Assembly (NCBI RefSeq): GCF_000176915.2
Contig: NC_014844.1
Coordinates: 1,364,001-1,428,000, forward strand
DNA: 64,000 bases
DNA from: Pseudodesulfovibrio aespoeensis Aspo-2
GTDB taxonomy: Bacteria; Desulfobacterota; Desulfovibrionia; Desulfovibrionales; Desulfovibrionaceae
Reading direction: 5' to 3'
The translations under genes were made by a program, and so were the position numbers. Of this stretch, positions 38,009 through 40,827 are shown in pieces. Position 1 is the first letter of the stretch. Every line of letters starts with the position of its first letter. Below the pieces are notes generated by a model. It was given only the letters and a program-made list of their open reading frames with translations, did no database searches and was not told the DNA's origin.

Positions 38009-38299
38009 CTAGGCAGCCAGTTTGACGGTCATGAACTTGAAGATGCCGTCGGTGATGCGGATGTTGCGTTCAAGCTCGGCCACCAGATTTCCGGGGGCGT
38101 CATAGACCAGTCGCACATAGTATCCGCGGGTCTGCTTCTGGACAGGGTAGGCCAGCTGGCGCAGGCCCCAGTCGTCGGTTTCGACCATGTTGCCGCCTTC
38201 GCGCTCCACGATGGAGGTGAGGAGGTCCAGGATGCCTTTCCTGTTTTCCTCAGCCAACTCGGGAGAGAGAAGCACGAGCGTCTCGTAGTTGTTAGCCAT
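38009..38299 (-). CDS. rpsF: 30S ribosomal protein bS6
   Basis: 96 residues starting [15 protein letters not shown]. The ferredoxin-like fold is evident with the [18 protein letters not shown] segment. The start at 38299 has AAGGAG 7 nt upstream; a longer frame to 38320 is not supported. First gene of the minus-strand block that runs to tlyA, directly downstream of a near-consensus promoter. Confidence 0.97.
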
Positions 38300-38361
38300 A
38301 ATGGTACTCCTTTTGGTCATTGGCCCTCCTCAATCAAAGAAGAGAGCAAGGCAAGGGGGGA

Positions 38362-38428: not shown

Positions 38429-38587
38429 CTATTTTTTGTCTTTTTCTTCGGATTTCCCGGATTTGGGCGGCTTCCAGCCGCACGAGTTGTTGCTCGGGCC
38501 TCAGCCGCCGCCGAGTTTGCCTCGGACGAAGCGACCGAAAACGAGGCCGAGGACGACCAGACCGACGAGTTGGAGCCATTCGGGCAT
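38429..38587 (-). CDS. candidate small membrane selenoprotein (UGA = Sec29)
   Basis: 52 residues if UGA at 38503-38501 is read as selenocysteine; 28 residues if it stops there. AGGAGG lies exactly 6 nt before ATG 38587 and overlaps the purC stop region, so this is a translated gene of the purC operon. Residues 4-20 are one hydrophobic helix (WLQLVGLVVLGLVFGRF), followed by GKLGGGUGPSNNSCGW and a Lys-rich tail ending EEKDKK before TAG 38429. A GC hairpin 19 nt after UGA fits the bacterial SECIS pattern. The N-terminal helix with GGGUG near the C-terminus mirrors eukaryotic SelK/SelS. Sec29 and Cys36 could form a selenylsulfide. selA/selB/selD are not in this window, so recoding is inferred. 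Confidence 0.65.
38467..38481 (-). promoter_or_regulatory. SECIS-like hairpin
   Basis: Minus-strand RNA GCGGC-UGGAA-GCCGC: 5-bp GC stem, 5-nt apical loop with G at position 2, starting 19 nt downstream of UGA 38503-38501. This meets the bacterial SECIS rules I know: stem 16-37 nt after UGA, and a G in the first two loop bases. A second small hairpin (CGAG-CAACAA-CUCG) lies between UGA and this one. Confidence 0.55.
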
Positions 38588-38597
38588 GACGGGCCTC

Positions 38598-39494
38598 CTA
38601 AAGCTTGAGTTCCCCGCCCGTGAGCAGGGCGTATGCTTCCATGTACTTGGCGCGGGTGCTCTCGGCGATCTCCGGCGGCACGCGCGGGGCCGGGGGCTGC
38701 TTGTTGAAGCCGATCTCCTCCAGCCAGTCGCGGAAATACTGCTTGTCAAAGCTCGGCTGCGACGCGCCGGGCGCGTATCCTTCCACAGGCCAGAAGCGCG
38801 ACGAGTCCGGGGTCAGCACCTCGTCGATGAGGATGAGCTGGTCGCCGACCATGCCGAACTCGAACTTGGTGTCCGCGATGATGATGCCGCGCAGCCGGGC
38901 GTAGTCGCGGGCGCGGCTGTAGATGGCGATGGCCAGGGTTTCGACAGTGCGCATCAGGTCCGCGCCGATGAGCTGGGCCGCCGTGTCCAGGGTGATGTTC
39001 TCGTCGTGGTCGCCCAGGTCCGCCTTGGTGGAGGGGGTGAAAAGCGGCGTCTCAAGCATCTCGGATTCCTTGAGATTGGCTGGCAGCGCGTGGCCGCAGA
39101 CCTGCCCAGTCTTCTGGTAGTCCTTCCAGCCTGAGCCGGTGATGAAGCCGCGCACGATGCACTCGATGGGCAGGGGCTTGGCTCTCTTGACCAGCACGCT
39201 GCGATCCTGCAACTCGGCCTTGTATTTGCGAAGCGGCTCGGGATAGTCGTCCACGTTGGTGGCGATGATGTGGTTGGGCACCAGATCACGCATCATGTCC
39301 ATCCAGAACAGGGTGATCTGGTTGAGGATTTTGCCCTTGTCCTCAATGGGGTCGGGCATGACCACGTCAAAGGCGGAGATGCGGTCCGTGGTCACCAGCA
39401 GCAGGGTGTCGGCATCTATCGCATAGATATCGCGGACCTTGCCTCTGGAGATGCGCGTGTATTCCTTGAAATCGGTTTCCATCACGGCGGTCAT
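38598..39494 (-). CDS. purC: phosphoribosylaminoimidazole-succinocarboxamide synthase
   Basis: 298 residues from the ATG at 39494, preceded by GAGGG. SAICAR synthetase motifs: RGKVRDIYAIDADTLLLVTTDRISAFD, IECIVRGFITGSGWKDY, and DTKFEFGMVGDQLILIDEVLTPDSSR. It ligates aspartate to CAIR in purine synthesis. It lies 28 bp after hisD and 10 bp before the candidate selenoprotein gene. Confidence 0.97.
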   Translation of the reverse strand: MTAVMETDFKEYTRISRGKVRDIYAIDADTLLLVTTDRISAFDVVMPDPIEDKGKILNQITLFWMDMMRDLVPNHIIATNVDDYPEPLRKYKAELQDRSVLVKRAKPLPIECIVRGFITGSGWKDYQKTGQVCGHALPANLKESEMLETPLFTPSTKADLGDHDENITLDTAAQLIGADLMRTVETLAIAIYSRARDYARLRGIIIADTKFEFGMVGDQLILIDEVLTPDSSRFWPVEGYAPGASQPSFDKQYFRDWLEEIGFNKQPPAPRVPPEIAESTRAKYMEAYALLTGGELKL

Positions 39495-39522: not shown

Positions 39523-40827
39523 CTATTTGGTGCGGCATTCCACGCTGCGGGCGTGGGCTTCAAGCCCTTCCAGCCGGGCCAGCCGGGCGATCTTGTGCCC
39601 GTGCTCGGCCACGTAGCCGGGGCTTGTGGCGATCACGCTGGATTTCTTGCAGAAATTCTGGACCGACAGGGCCGAGGAAAAGCGCACGGTGCGCAGGGTG
39701 GGCAGGACATGGTTGGGTCCGGCAAAGTAGTCGCCCACTGGTTCTGGCGAGGTGTGGCCCATGAAGATGGCCCCGGCGTGGCGGATGGAGCCGAGCATGG
39801 TCCAAGGGTCGGCCAGGGCGAGTTCCAGGTGTTCGGGGGCCAGCAGGTTGACCAGCTCGGCCCCGGCGGTCAGGTCCGGCACCGTGATGACGCCTCCCCA
39901 CGATTCCAGGGATTTGGCCGCGATCTGGCCGCGCGGCAGGGCGGTGCACTGGGTCGTCAGTTCCCGGCGCACTTCTTCGGCCAGCCCGGTATCCGGGGTG
40001 ACGAGGATGGAGGCAGCCAGCGGGTCGTGCTCGGCCTGGGAGAGCATGTCCGCCGCCAGCCAGGCCGGGGTGGCGGAGCTGTCGGCCAGGATGACGATCT
40101 CGCTTGGCCCGGCCACCATGTCGATGCCCACCTGTCCGATGAGCTGGGATTTGGCCGTGGCCACGAAGATGTTGCCCGGCCCGGCAAGCACGTCGCACGG
40201 GGCGATGGTCTGCGTGCCGTAGGCCAGTGCGCCGATGGCCCAGGCGGAACCGGCGAGGTGGATTTCACCCAGGCCGAGCAGGGCGGCGGTGGCCAGAATA
40301 TAGGGGTTCAGGGTGGCGTCGGCGCGCGGCGGCGAGGTCACGGCTATGGACTCCACCCCGGCTACCTGGGCCGGGATGGCGTTCATGATCAGGCTGGAGA
40401 TGAGCGGGGTCTCACCGCCCTGGCCGCCGGGCACATAGAGGCCCACCCGGTCCACCGGGCGGACCATCTGGCCCAGGATGGTCCCGTCCGGGCTGGTGGT
40501 CCACCAGGATTTTTCCTTCTGGTTGGCGTGGAAGTCGCGCACCCGGCGGATCGCCTCCTCAAGGATGGCGATGTCCGCCCTGGGCAGATCGGCCAGGGCT
40601 GCGTCGATGGCCTCCTTGGGGACGCGCAGCATGGAGCCGTCGAAGTTCGGGCAGTCGAATGTGCGGGTGTACTCCACCAGGGCGTCGTTGCCCCGGTCTT
40701 TCACCGCGGCGAGGATGTCCCGGACGATTCCGTCCACAGTGGTGTCCGGGTCTTTGCGCCGGTCAAGCCAAGTGGCGATGGCGGGCCAGTCCTGGAGGTT
40801 TGTATAGTCAAGGGTTCTGCACGGCAT
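39523..40827 (-). CDS. hisD: histidinol dehydrogenase
   Basis: 434 residues, normal length. It carries out the last two oxidations of histidine synthesis with Zn and NAD. Motifs: VPGGQGGETPLISSLIMNAIPA (nucleotide region), GPGNIFVATAK, MVAGPSEIVILAD, QAEHDPLAAS with catalytic and metal histidines, and APEHLEL. GAGG lies about 6 nt upstream of the ATG. First gene of the hisD-purC operon. Fusion or truncation is not evident. Confidence 0.97.
   Translation of the reverse strand: MPCRTLDYTNLQDWPAIATWLDRRKDPDTTVDGIVRDILAAVKDRGNDALVEYTRTFDCPNFDGSMLRVPKEAIDAALADLPRADIAILEEAIRRVRDFHANQKEKSWWTTSPDGTILGQMVRPVDRVGLYVPGGQGGETPLISSLIMNAIPAQVAGVESIAVTSPPRADATLNPYILATAALLGLGEIHLAGSAWAIGALAYGTQTIAPCDVLAGPGNIFVATAKSQLIGQVGIDMVAGPSEIVILADSSATPAWLAADMLSQAEHDPLAASILVTPDTGLAEEVRRELTTQCTALPRGQIAAKSLESWGGVITVPDLTAGAELVNLLAPEHLELALADPWTMLGSIRHAGAIFMGHTSPEPVGDYFAGPNHVLPTLRTVRFSSALSVQNFCKKSSVIATSPGYVAEHGHKIARLARLEGLEAHARSVECRTK

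Follow-up and report, generated by a model that had tools for sequence, protein, structure and literature searches.

A 52-codon open reading frame downstream of purC in Pseudodesulfovibrio aespoeensis Aspo-2 is very probably a genuine selenoprotein gene (probability about 0.9, judged from the sequence). The window, that is the whole stretch of DNA analysed, comprised 64,000 nucleotides of contig NC_014844.1. Reading the in-frame UGA as selenocysteine (Sec) is strongly supported by the conserved TGA, a family-wide hairpin, the Sec machinery and the conserved reading frame. The decisive evidence is comparative: frame, UGA and hairpin were kept across one phylum of sulfate-reducing bacteria. The preliminary description had proposed a candidate small selenoprotein gene, which is supported, but the gene does not stand alone and belongs to a large family. 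After purC, translation would start from a strong ribosome-binding site. We infer that the UGA at codon 29 is decoded as Sec by SelB and tRNA-Sec under the direction of a hairpin with its loop some 20-25 nt further on. The resulting protein would span the inner membrane once, with the N-terminus outside and a short, charged, disordered tail in the cytoplasm; this tail would carry a reactive Sec beside the membrane, accompanied in most members by a Cys at +5 to +8.

All coordinates given for the locus in the preliminary description proved correct (Table 1). The AGGAGG ends 6 nt before the ATG at 38587 and shares bases with the stop TAG of purC (38600-38598), 28 codons lead to the UGA, and 23 sense codons follow before the stop TAG at 38431-38429. 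With UGA as Sec the product reads MPEWLQLVGLVVLGLVFGRFVRGKLGGG-U-GPSNNSCGWKPPKSGKSEEKDKK, and the one Cys and one Trp announced for its tail are present. The statement that a gene caller would see a 28-residue frame or nothing was not quite right: a TTG-started frame of 82 amino acids also ends at the UGA. Among the genus members most have similar Shine-Dalgarno sites, as judged by eye. The gene order in the window is hisD-purC-X-rpsF-rpsR-rplI-dnaB, X being the new gene; purC, rpsF and the genes further downstream are presumably these, as they were named by recognition of their sequences. Between the selenoprotein gene and rpsF, a TTGACA separated by 17 nt from a TATAAG was noticed by eye on the minus strand (window positions 38390-38362), hence rpsF may have its own transcript start. 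A scan of the region for promoter-like sites, which requires T as the final base of the second hexamer, returned none.

Table 1. Positions of the features at the selenoprotein locus, numbered within the window
Feature	Position	Strand	Remarks
Selenoprotein ORF	38429..38587	minus	52 residues including Sec29, TAG stop; homologues found
In-frame UGA, read as selenocysteine (codon 29)	38501..38503	minus	TGA in 138/138 distinct members
Shine-Dalgarno sequence AGGAGG	38594..38599	minus	overlaps purC stop; from sequence
purC (presumed), upstream neighbour	38598..39494	minus	ATG start read by eye; TTG start at 39563 in the ORF list
rpsF (presumed), downstream neighbour	38009..38320	minus	followed by rpsR, rplI, dnaB
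Predicted single transmembrane helix, residues 3-25	38513..38581	minus	AlphaFold2, 138-row alignment
Cys36, candidate partner of Sec29 (+7)	38480..38482	minus	Cys at +5 to +8 in 127/138 members
SECIS-type hairpin GCGGCU-GGA-AGCCGC	38467..38481	minus	-8.7 kcal/mol scored alone; loop begins 25 nt after UGA

An initial search of 149 genomes from the taxonomic family yielded nine close matches in the genus, including the own genome (E 4.7e-31 to 1.5e-9), each with one in-frame TGA. Other genera gave weaker matches, of which the better ones mostly contain a TGA. At E<=0.01, a profile of 31 members (A1) matched 169 of the phylum's 395 genomes, and a profile of 138 members (A2) matched 172 of the 395 genomes and 114 of 246 genera at E<=1e-4. 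Of the 36 genomes in the genus, 34 gave a profile match, among them 32/32 of the complete, clean ones; the protein of Pseudodesulfovibrio sp. OB3 (L031) is identical to those of the genus members L151 and L153. One genus of the same family (g40) gave no convincing member in 11/11 genomes, although all 11 have tRNA-Sec, and seems to be a clade that lost the selenoprotein gene while retaining Sec. No relatives outside the phylum were detected in plasmids or the PDB, nor in viral contigs (one scan with one member as query); the matches listed from a scan of genome contigs included one Pseudodesulfovibrio.

The DNA of 137 loci provided 138 distinct proteins; left out were L142, one protein identical to another, and L040-L042, which duplicate L001, L018 and L025. 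In every one of these 138 members the Sec codon is TGA, and neither TGC, TGT, TAA or TAG nor any sense codon occurs at this position. The same was observed for 15/15 members read later (L182-L190, L200-L205). Six of them (L200-L205) had been A1 matches seemingly without TGA, and the TGA was located at the Sec place just past the end of the match in 6/6. An in-frame TGA was also spanned by 150/150 of the matches listed from the A2 search of the phylum, which cover all but 22 of the 172 genomes; the position of this TGA at the Sec codon was read in those matches that were fetched. The codons ending the 138 frames are mixed (TAG 49, TAA 47, TGA 42); in all but four members, any second in-frame TGA was counted as the end. 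Only two positions, the start and the Sec column, are invariant across the 138 members; Pro23, Gly26 and Cys36 are conserved to at least 90 %.

The predicted conservation of the frame after the UGA at the protein level was borne out by a dN/dS of 0.227 after versus 0.112 before the UGA. These values come from 26 distinct sequences of the genus, whose 325 pairs include 52 close ones that were used; L176-L178 and duplicates had been dropped. Differences after the UGA amount to 0.178, 0.093 and 0.421 for the first, second and third codon position, a third-position bias. In the Desulfovibrionaceae both arms of the hairpin encode the motif CGW[KT]PP that follows the UGA, thus what looks like conservation of the protein may in part be conservation of the RNA.

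A hairpin 19 nt after the UGA with a G as second loop base had been described, and both details were confirmed; G occupies the first two loop positions. The published model of the bacterial SECIS element (bSECIS) specifies, in the text available of PMC13188914, a loop of 3-9 nt, a stem of 4-16 bp, a G in the first two loop positions, a distance of 16-37 nt from the UGA and a minimum free energy of <=-7.5. With a 3-nt loop GGA, 6 bp, the loop after 25 nt and -8.7 kcal/mol if scored alone, the window hairpin lies within these limits. The window hairpin is more than chance. The fold of 71 nt around it is better than that of 199 among 200 dinucleotide-shuffled sequences (z -2.76); the minimum-energy fold of these 71 nt pairs the hairpin bases otherwise, and the SECIS hairpin as such is absent from it. 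Family-wide, in line with the bSECIS model, the search was for perfect stems whose loop has 3-9 nt, contains a G among its first two bases and starts 16-37 nt after the UGA. Hairpins of <=-4 kcal/mol were present in 119/138 members versus 43/209 ordinary TGA stops, 65/351 TAA/TAG stops and 42/296 random codons of neighbouring ORFs, so that under this strict rule 19/138 members are without a hairpin. Mean energies were -7.39 kcal/mol for the members, -1.90 for TGA stops, -1.83 for TAA/TAG stops and -1.32 for random codons. At <=-7.5, scored alone, 73/138 members compare with 19/209 TGA stops. All 15 members read later had a hairpin of <=-5.8 kcal/mol. Random synonymous recoding of the same peptides gave in a similar search a mean of -1.65 versus the members' -7.39 kcal/mol, and p<=0.05 was reached in 99/138 members with 40 randomisations each. 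Of the 110 stronger hairpins, 93 had a loop that started 20-25 nt after the UGA. Among the 92 hairpins whose loops measure 3 or 5 nt, GC, CG, UA and AU all occur, in different members, at every one of the six innermost pair positions; the pairing in these 92 is given by the selection of hairpins, and the weight rests on the controls. In sequence comparison, the letters of the putative hairpin clearly vary across members while a hairpin stays.

The Sec machinery expected for the own genome was found: selA, selB, selD and tRNA-Sec all scored over the cut-off, the latter with 82.3 bits. The own selD (C1:3326258-3327184, L181) holds one in-frame TGA, thus the selenophosphate synthetase of this organism appears to be a selenoprotein itself. 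Among the 169 genomes matched by A1, 152 had a tRNA-Sec over the cut-off, with the lists compared by eye, and the other 17 all had selB over the cut-off. A milder tRNA search of these 17 placed seven just over the cut-off (47-50 bits) and ten below; the tRNA-Sec matches listed for the phylum have about 73-87 bits. Genomes without tRNA-Sec comprised 17/169 of the matched versus 34/226 of the others, again by eye. Co-occurrence with tRNA-Sec was rejected as a proof of the selenoprotein, being weak: 344 of the 395 genomes of the phylum have tRNA-Sec. Sec is near universal in this phylum, hence machinery co-occurrence is little more than a consistency check.

Homologues with TGC or TGT at the Sec codon had been predicted, and this prediction failed: none exists among the 138 members in searches within one phylum. 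Since Sec is represented by C in the profiles, Cys forms should have been favoured, and their absence was not produced by the method. Nearly all selenoproteins have Cys homologues according to the available text of a 2026 review (PMC13188914), and selenoproteins without them are called scarce in the part at hand of PMC1914089. The lack of Cys homologues in our searches therefore makes the family unusual, while the selenoprotein reading is not refuted. Seven of the weak matches, all without TGA (L142, L194-L199), were examined as Cys forms and rejected. L142 (profile E 3.7e-3, no TGA) is a protein of the FeoB_associated family (37.9 bits versus a cut-off of 27), L195-L199 are Cys-rich small membrane proteins that all match FeoB_associated (PF12669), and L194 is an unrelated frame. 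The genomes of L142 and L195-L199 hold a selenoprotein match in addition. In hhalign, the family profile aligned with the six FeoB_associated proteins over 41 columns at a probability of 95.7 %, and Sec fell on the first Cys of their GCGC motif; this value overstates the kinship because the six were chosen by the same profile, C stood for Sec in that profile, and membrane helices are alike. In both groups a small N-terminal membrane helix and a basic stretch are followed by Gly/Cys, whereas the tail is Cys-rich in the FeoB-associated proteins and has one Sec and usually one Cys in the selenoprotein family. PF12669 had no significant match among the 138 members and a weak similarity in four of them (best E 0.039). 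Based on these alignments, FeoB-associated proteins, the closest Cys proteins found, are possibly distant kin of the selenoprotein family.

Family members have 44-70 residues and a single helix. AlphaFold2 predicted no secondary structure outside this helix (mean pLDDT 68.9). The net charge is -0.57 ahead of the hydrophobic stretch and +1.92 behind it, and the C-terminal side is the more positive one in 130/138 members; by the positive-inside rule, this bias suggests a cytoplasmic tail and an N-terminus outside. A Cys after the Sec is absent in 2/138 members, both tandem copies, and in four of six weaker members read later. These four (L201, L202, L204, L205) possess Sec without any Cys after it and have strong hairpins (-7.6 to -10.0 kcal/mol). 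Judged from such sequences, Sec can apparently work without a Cys partner. In L175, from position 1501 on the plus strand, a Cys directly precedes the Sec and the usual one after it is missing, as if the partner Cys had moved. The constant feature of the family is Sec, not the Sec-Cys pair. Two in-frame UGAs are present in L090:2824-3033, L093:2852-3058, L100:2945-3154 and L110:2961-3158, with a separate SECIS-type hairpin behind every one of the eight TGAs; these are likely double-Sec forms that arose through repetition of the Sec motif. Just downstream of the members in L015 and L018 lies a tandem second UGA-containing membrane ORF without Cys after the Sec (L015:1294-1446 and L018:1309-1461, both minus strand). 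It reads MWDN...MRGUMPRPPDVWETPDK, has a weaker hairpin (-3.2 kcal/mol) and is perhaps a sister selenoprotein.

The genomic context is stable within clades and different between clades. The purC cluster was present in 20 loci of the context set. In other clades the neighbours are, as we take it from recognition of the sequences, gltX (upstream in 9 loci), a small cytochrome c (7) or an FmdB-like gene (6). Domains of tRNA-synthetases, cytochromes c and thioredoxins were seen among the neighbours; the thioredoxin domain PF00085 occurred in 3 of 63 distinct close same-strand neighbours, which is suggestive only. No Feo family was among the 25 of 112 families listed for these 63 neighbours. By eye, no feoB was recognised near family genes in the context table, which is approximate because the ORF caller took antisense ORFs in GC-rich loci; the neighbours in the window are purC and rpsF. 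The difference in context between clades points to a general role in the membrane more than to a single fixed partner.

Four readings other than a redox-active selenoprotein were weighed. If the UGA were an ordinary stop, a 28-residue membrane peptide would be made and the hairpin would be a terminator or mRNA stabiliser. Such a peptide would form a complete membrane helix, and six terminator-like repeats in a region of 1.5 kb exceed the 1.6 expected, but the SECIS-type hairpin is not among these six. Only TGA, never TAA or TAG, occupies the position in all 138 members, the frame behind it is kept with a third-position bias, and the hairpin has SECIS geometry, so that an ordinary stop is extremely improbable. 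Still less credible is a reading of the UGA as another amino acid, e.g., Trp by near-cognate decoding: no member has a sense codon at the Sec place, the loop position relative to the UGA in the stronger hairpins is that given above, and all 169 genomes matched by A1 have tRNA-Sec or selB over the cut-off. In a selenium-sensing leader, stop or readthrough at the UGA would report the selenium status and control a neighbouring gene, with the peptide itself being irrelevant. The short ORF beside housekeeping genes would suit this role, and UGA plus SECIS would make translation selenium-dependent. However, the part before the UGA is strongly selected (dN/dS 0.11), a similar hydrophobic helix occurs across the phylum, and the neighbours differ between clades, hence no single regulated gene follows. 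A leader is thus very unlikely.

The probability given for the selenoprotein gene does not extend to its function. Most likely, though at a little under even odds, the selenol would serve as a small redox centre anchored in the membrane, where it would form a selenenylsulfide with a partner thiol or, in proteins that have one, with the protein's own Cys. The neighbours differ between clades, so this redox role rests mainly on Sec chemistry. Alternatively, the Sec tail would bind a metal or a selenium species and the protein would act as a membrane metallochaperone or transport accessory, not as an electron carrier. FeoB-associated Cys-rich proteins may be metallochaperones or transport accessories, and the hhalign probability to the six PF12669 proteins as well as the weak similarity of four members to this family point in that direction. 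Against it stand the overstated kinship, the failure of all 138 members to reach PF12669, the one Cys beside the Sec in most members in place of a Cys-rich tail, and the Feo families missing among the neighbour families listed. Metal binding is therefore regarded as unlikely, although the reading of the weak matches slightly raised its odds and slightly reduced those of the redox role.

The family is apparently undescribed in print, as judged from open-licence papers. NCBIfam release 20.0 gave eight unrelated families at E<=0.1 for the 138 members, the best at 0.0021 (ATP synthase subunit B); models up to NF050037 appeared in the output, thus recent selenoprotein models were probably included. 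Pfam gave 15 families at E<=0.1, unrelated or insignificant (best 0.0056, PF04602, 20 members). An inventory of 2026 counts 119 bacterial selenoprotein families and subfamilies (PMC13188914, Table 1), and none of these 119 entries matched when compared by name and motif, not by sequence. The nine new families reported with deep-Sep, three of them hypothetical proteins, are all said to have Cys homologues in the available text of PMC12013277. The new family was plausibly overlooked since its proteins have about 50 residues, the UGA splits them in annotation, and methods that pair Sec with Cys have no Cys form to work with.

It is close to an even bet that the family is as a whole obligately selenium-dependent and phylum-wide, with cysteine never replacing Sec so far as seen, that it performs a membrane job needing selenium as the bacterial counterpart in architecture of the eukaryotic selenoproteins K and S (SelK and SelS), and that it was missed as discovery methods pair Sec with Cys homologues. 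If this is true, a large selenoprotein family has been overlooked, and one helix with a Sec tail would offer a minimal system for asking what selenium does that sulfur cannot. It would further suggest that sulfate reducers have more extensive selenoproteomes than the catalogues show, and that conserved UGA and SECIS alone suffice to find recoded small proteins.

With the known bSECIS selenoproteins the family shares the in-frame UGA, the hairpin directly downstream, the association with SelA, SelB, SelD and tRNA-Sec, and often a U...C arrangement. It differs from known bacterial selenoproteins in its size of 44-70 residues, the single helix and the fact that no member with Cys for Sec was found. 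Selenoprotein A of glycine reductase (GrdA) has likewise been reported without Cys homologues in the accessible part of PMC1914089. Unlike the membrane family, GrdA is a soluble subunit of an enzyme of amino acid fermentation. GrdA is not known to be related in sequence to the new family. The eukaryotic SelK and SelS are small single-pass membrane proteins with Sec in a short, charged, disordered tail. The Pfam model SelK_SelG had no match at E<=0.1 in any of the 138 members; the likeness is one of architecture only, and the new family is bacterial.
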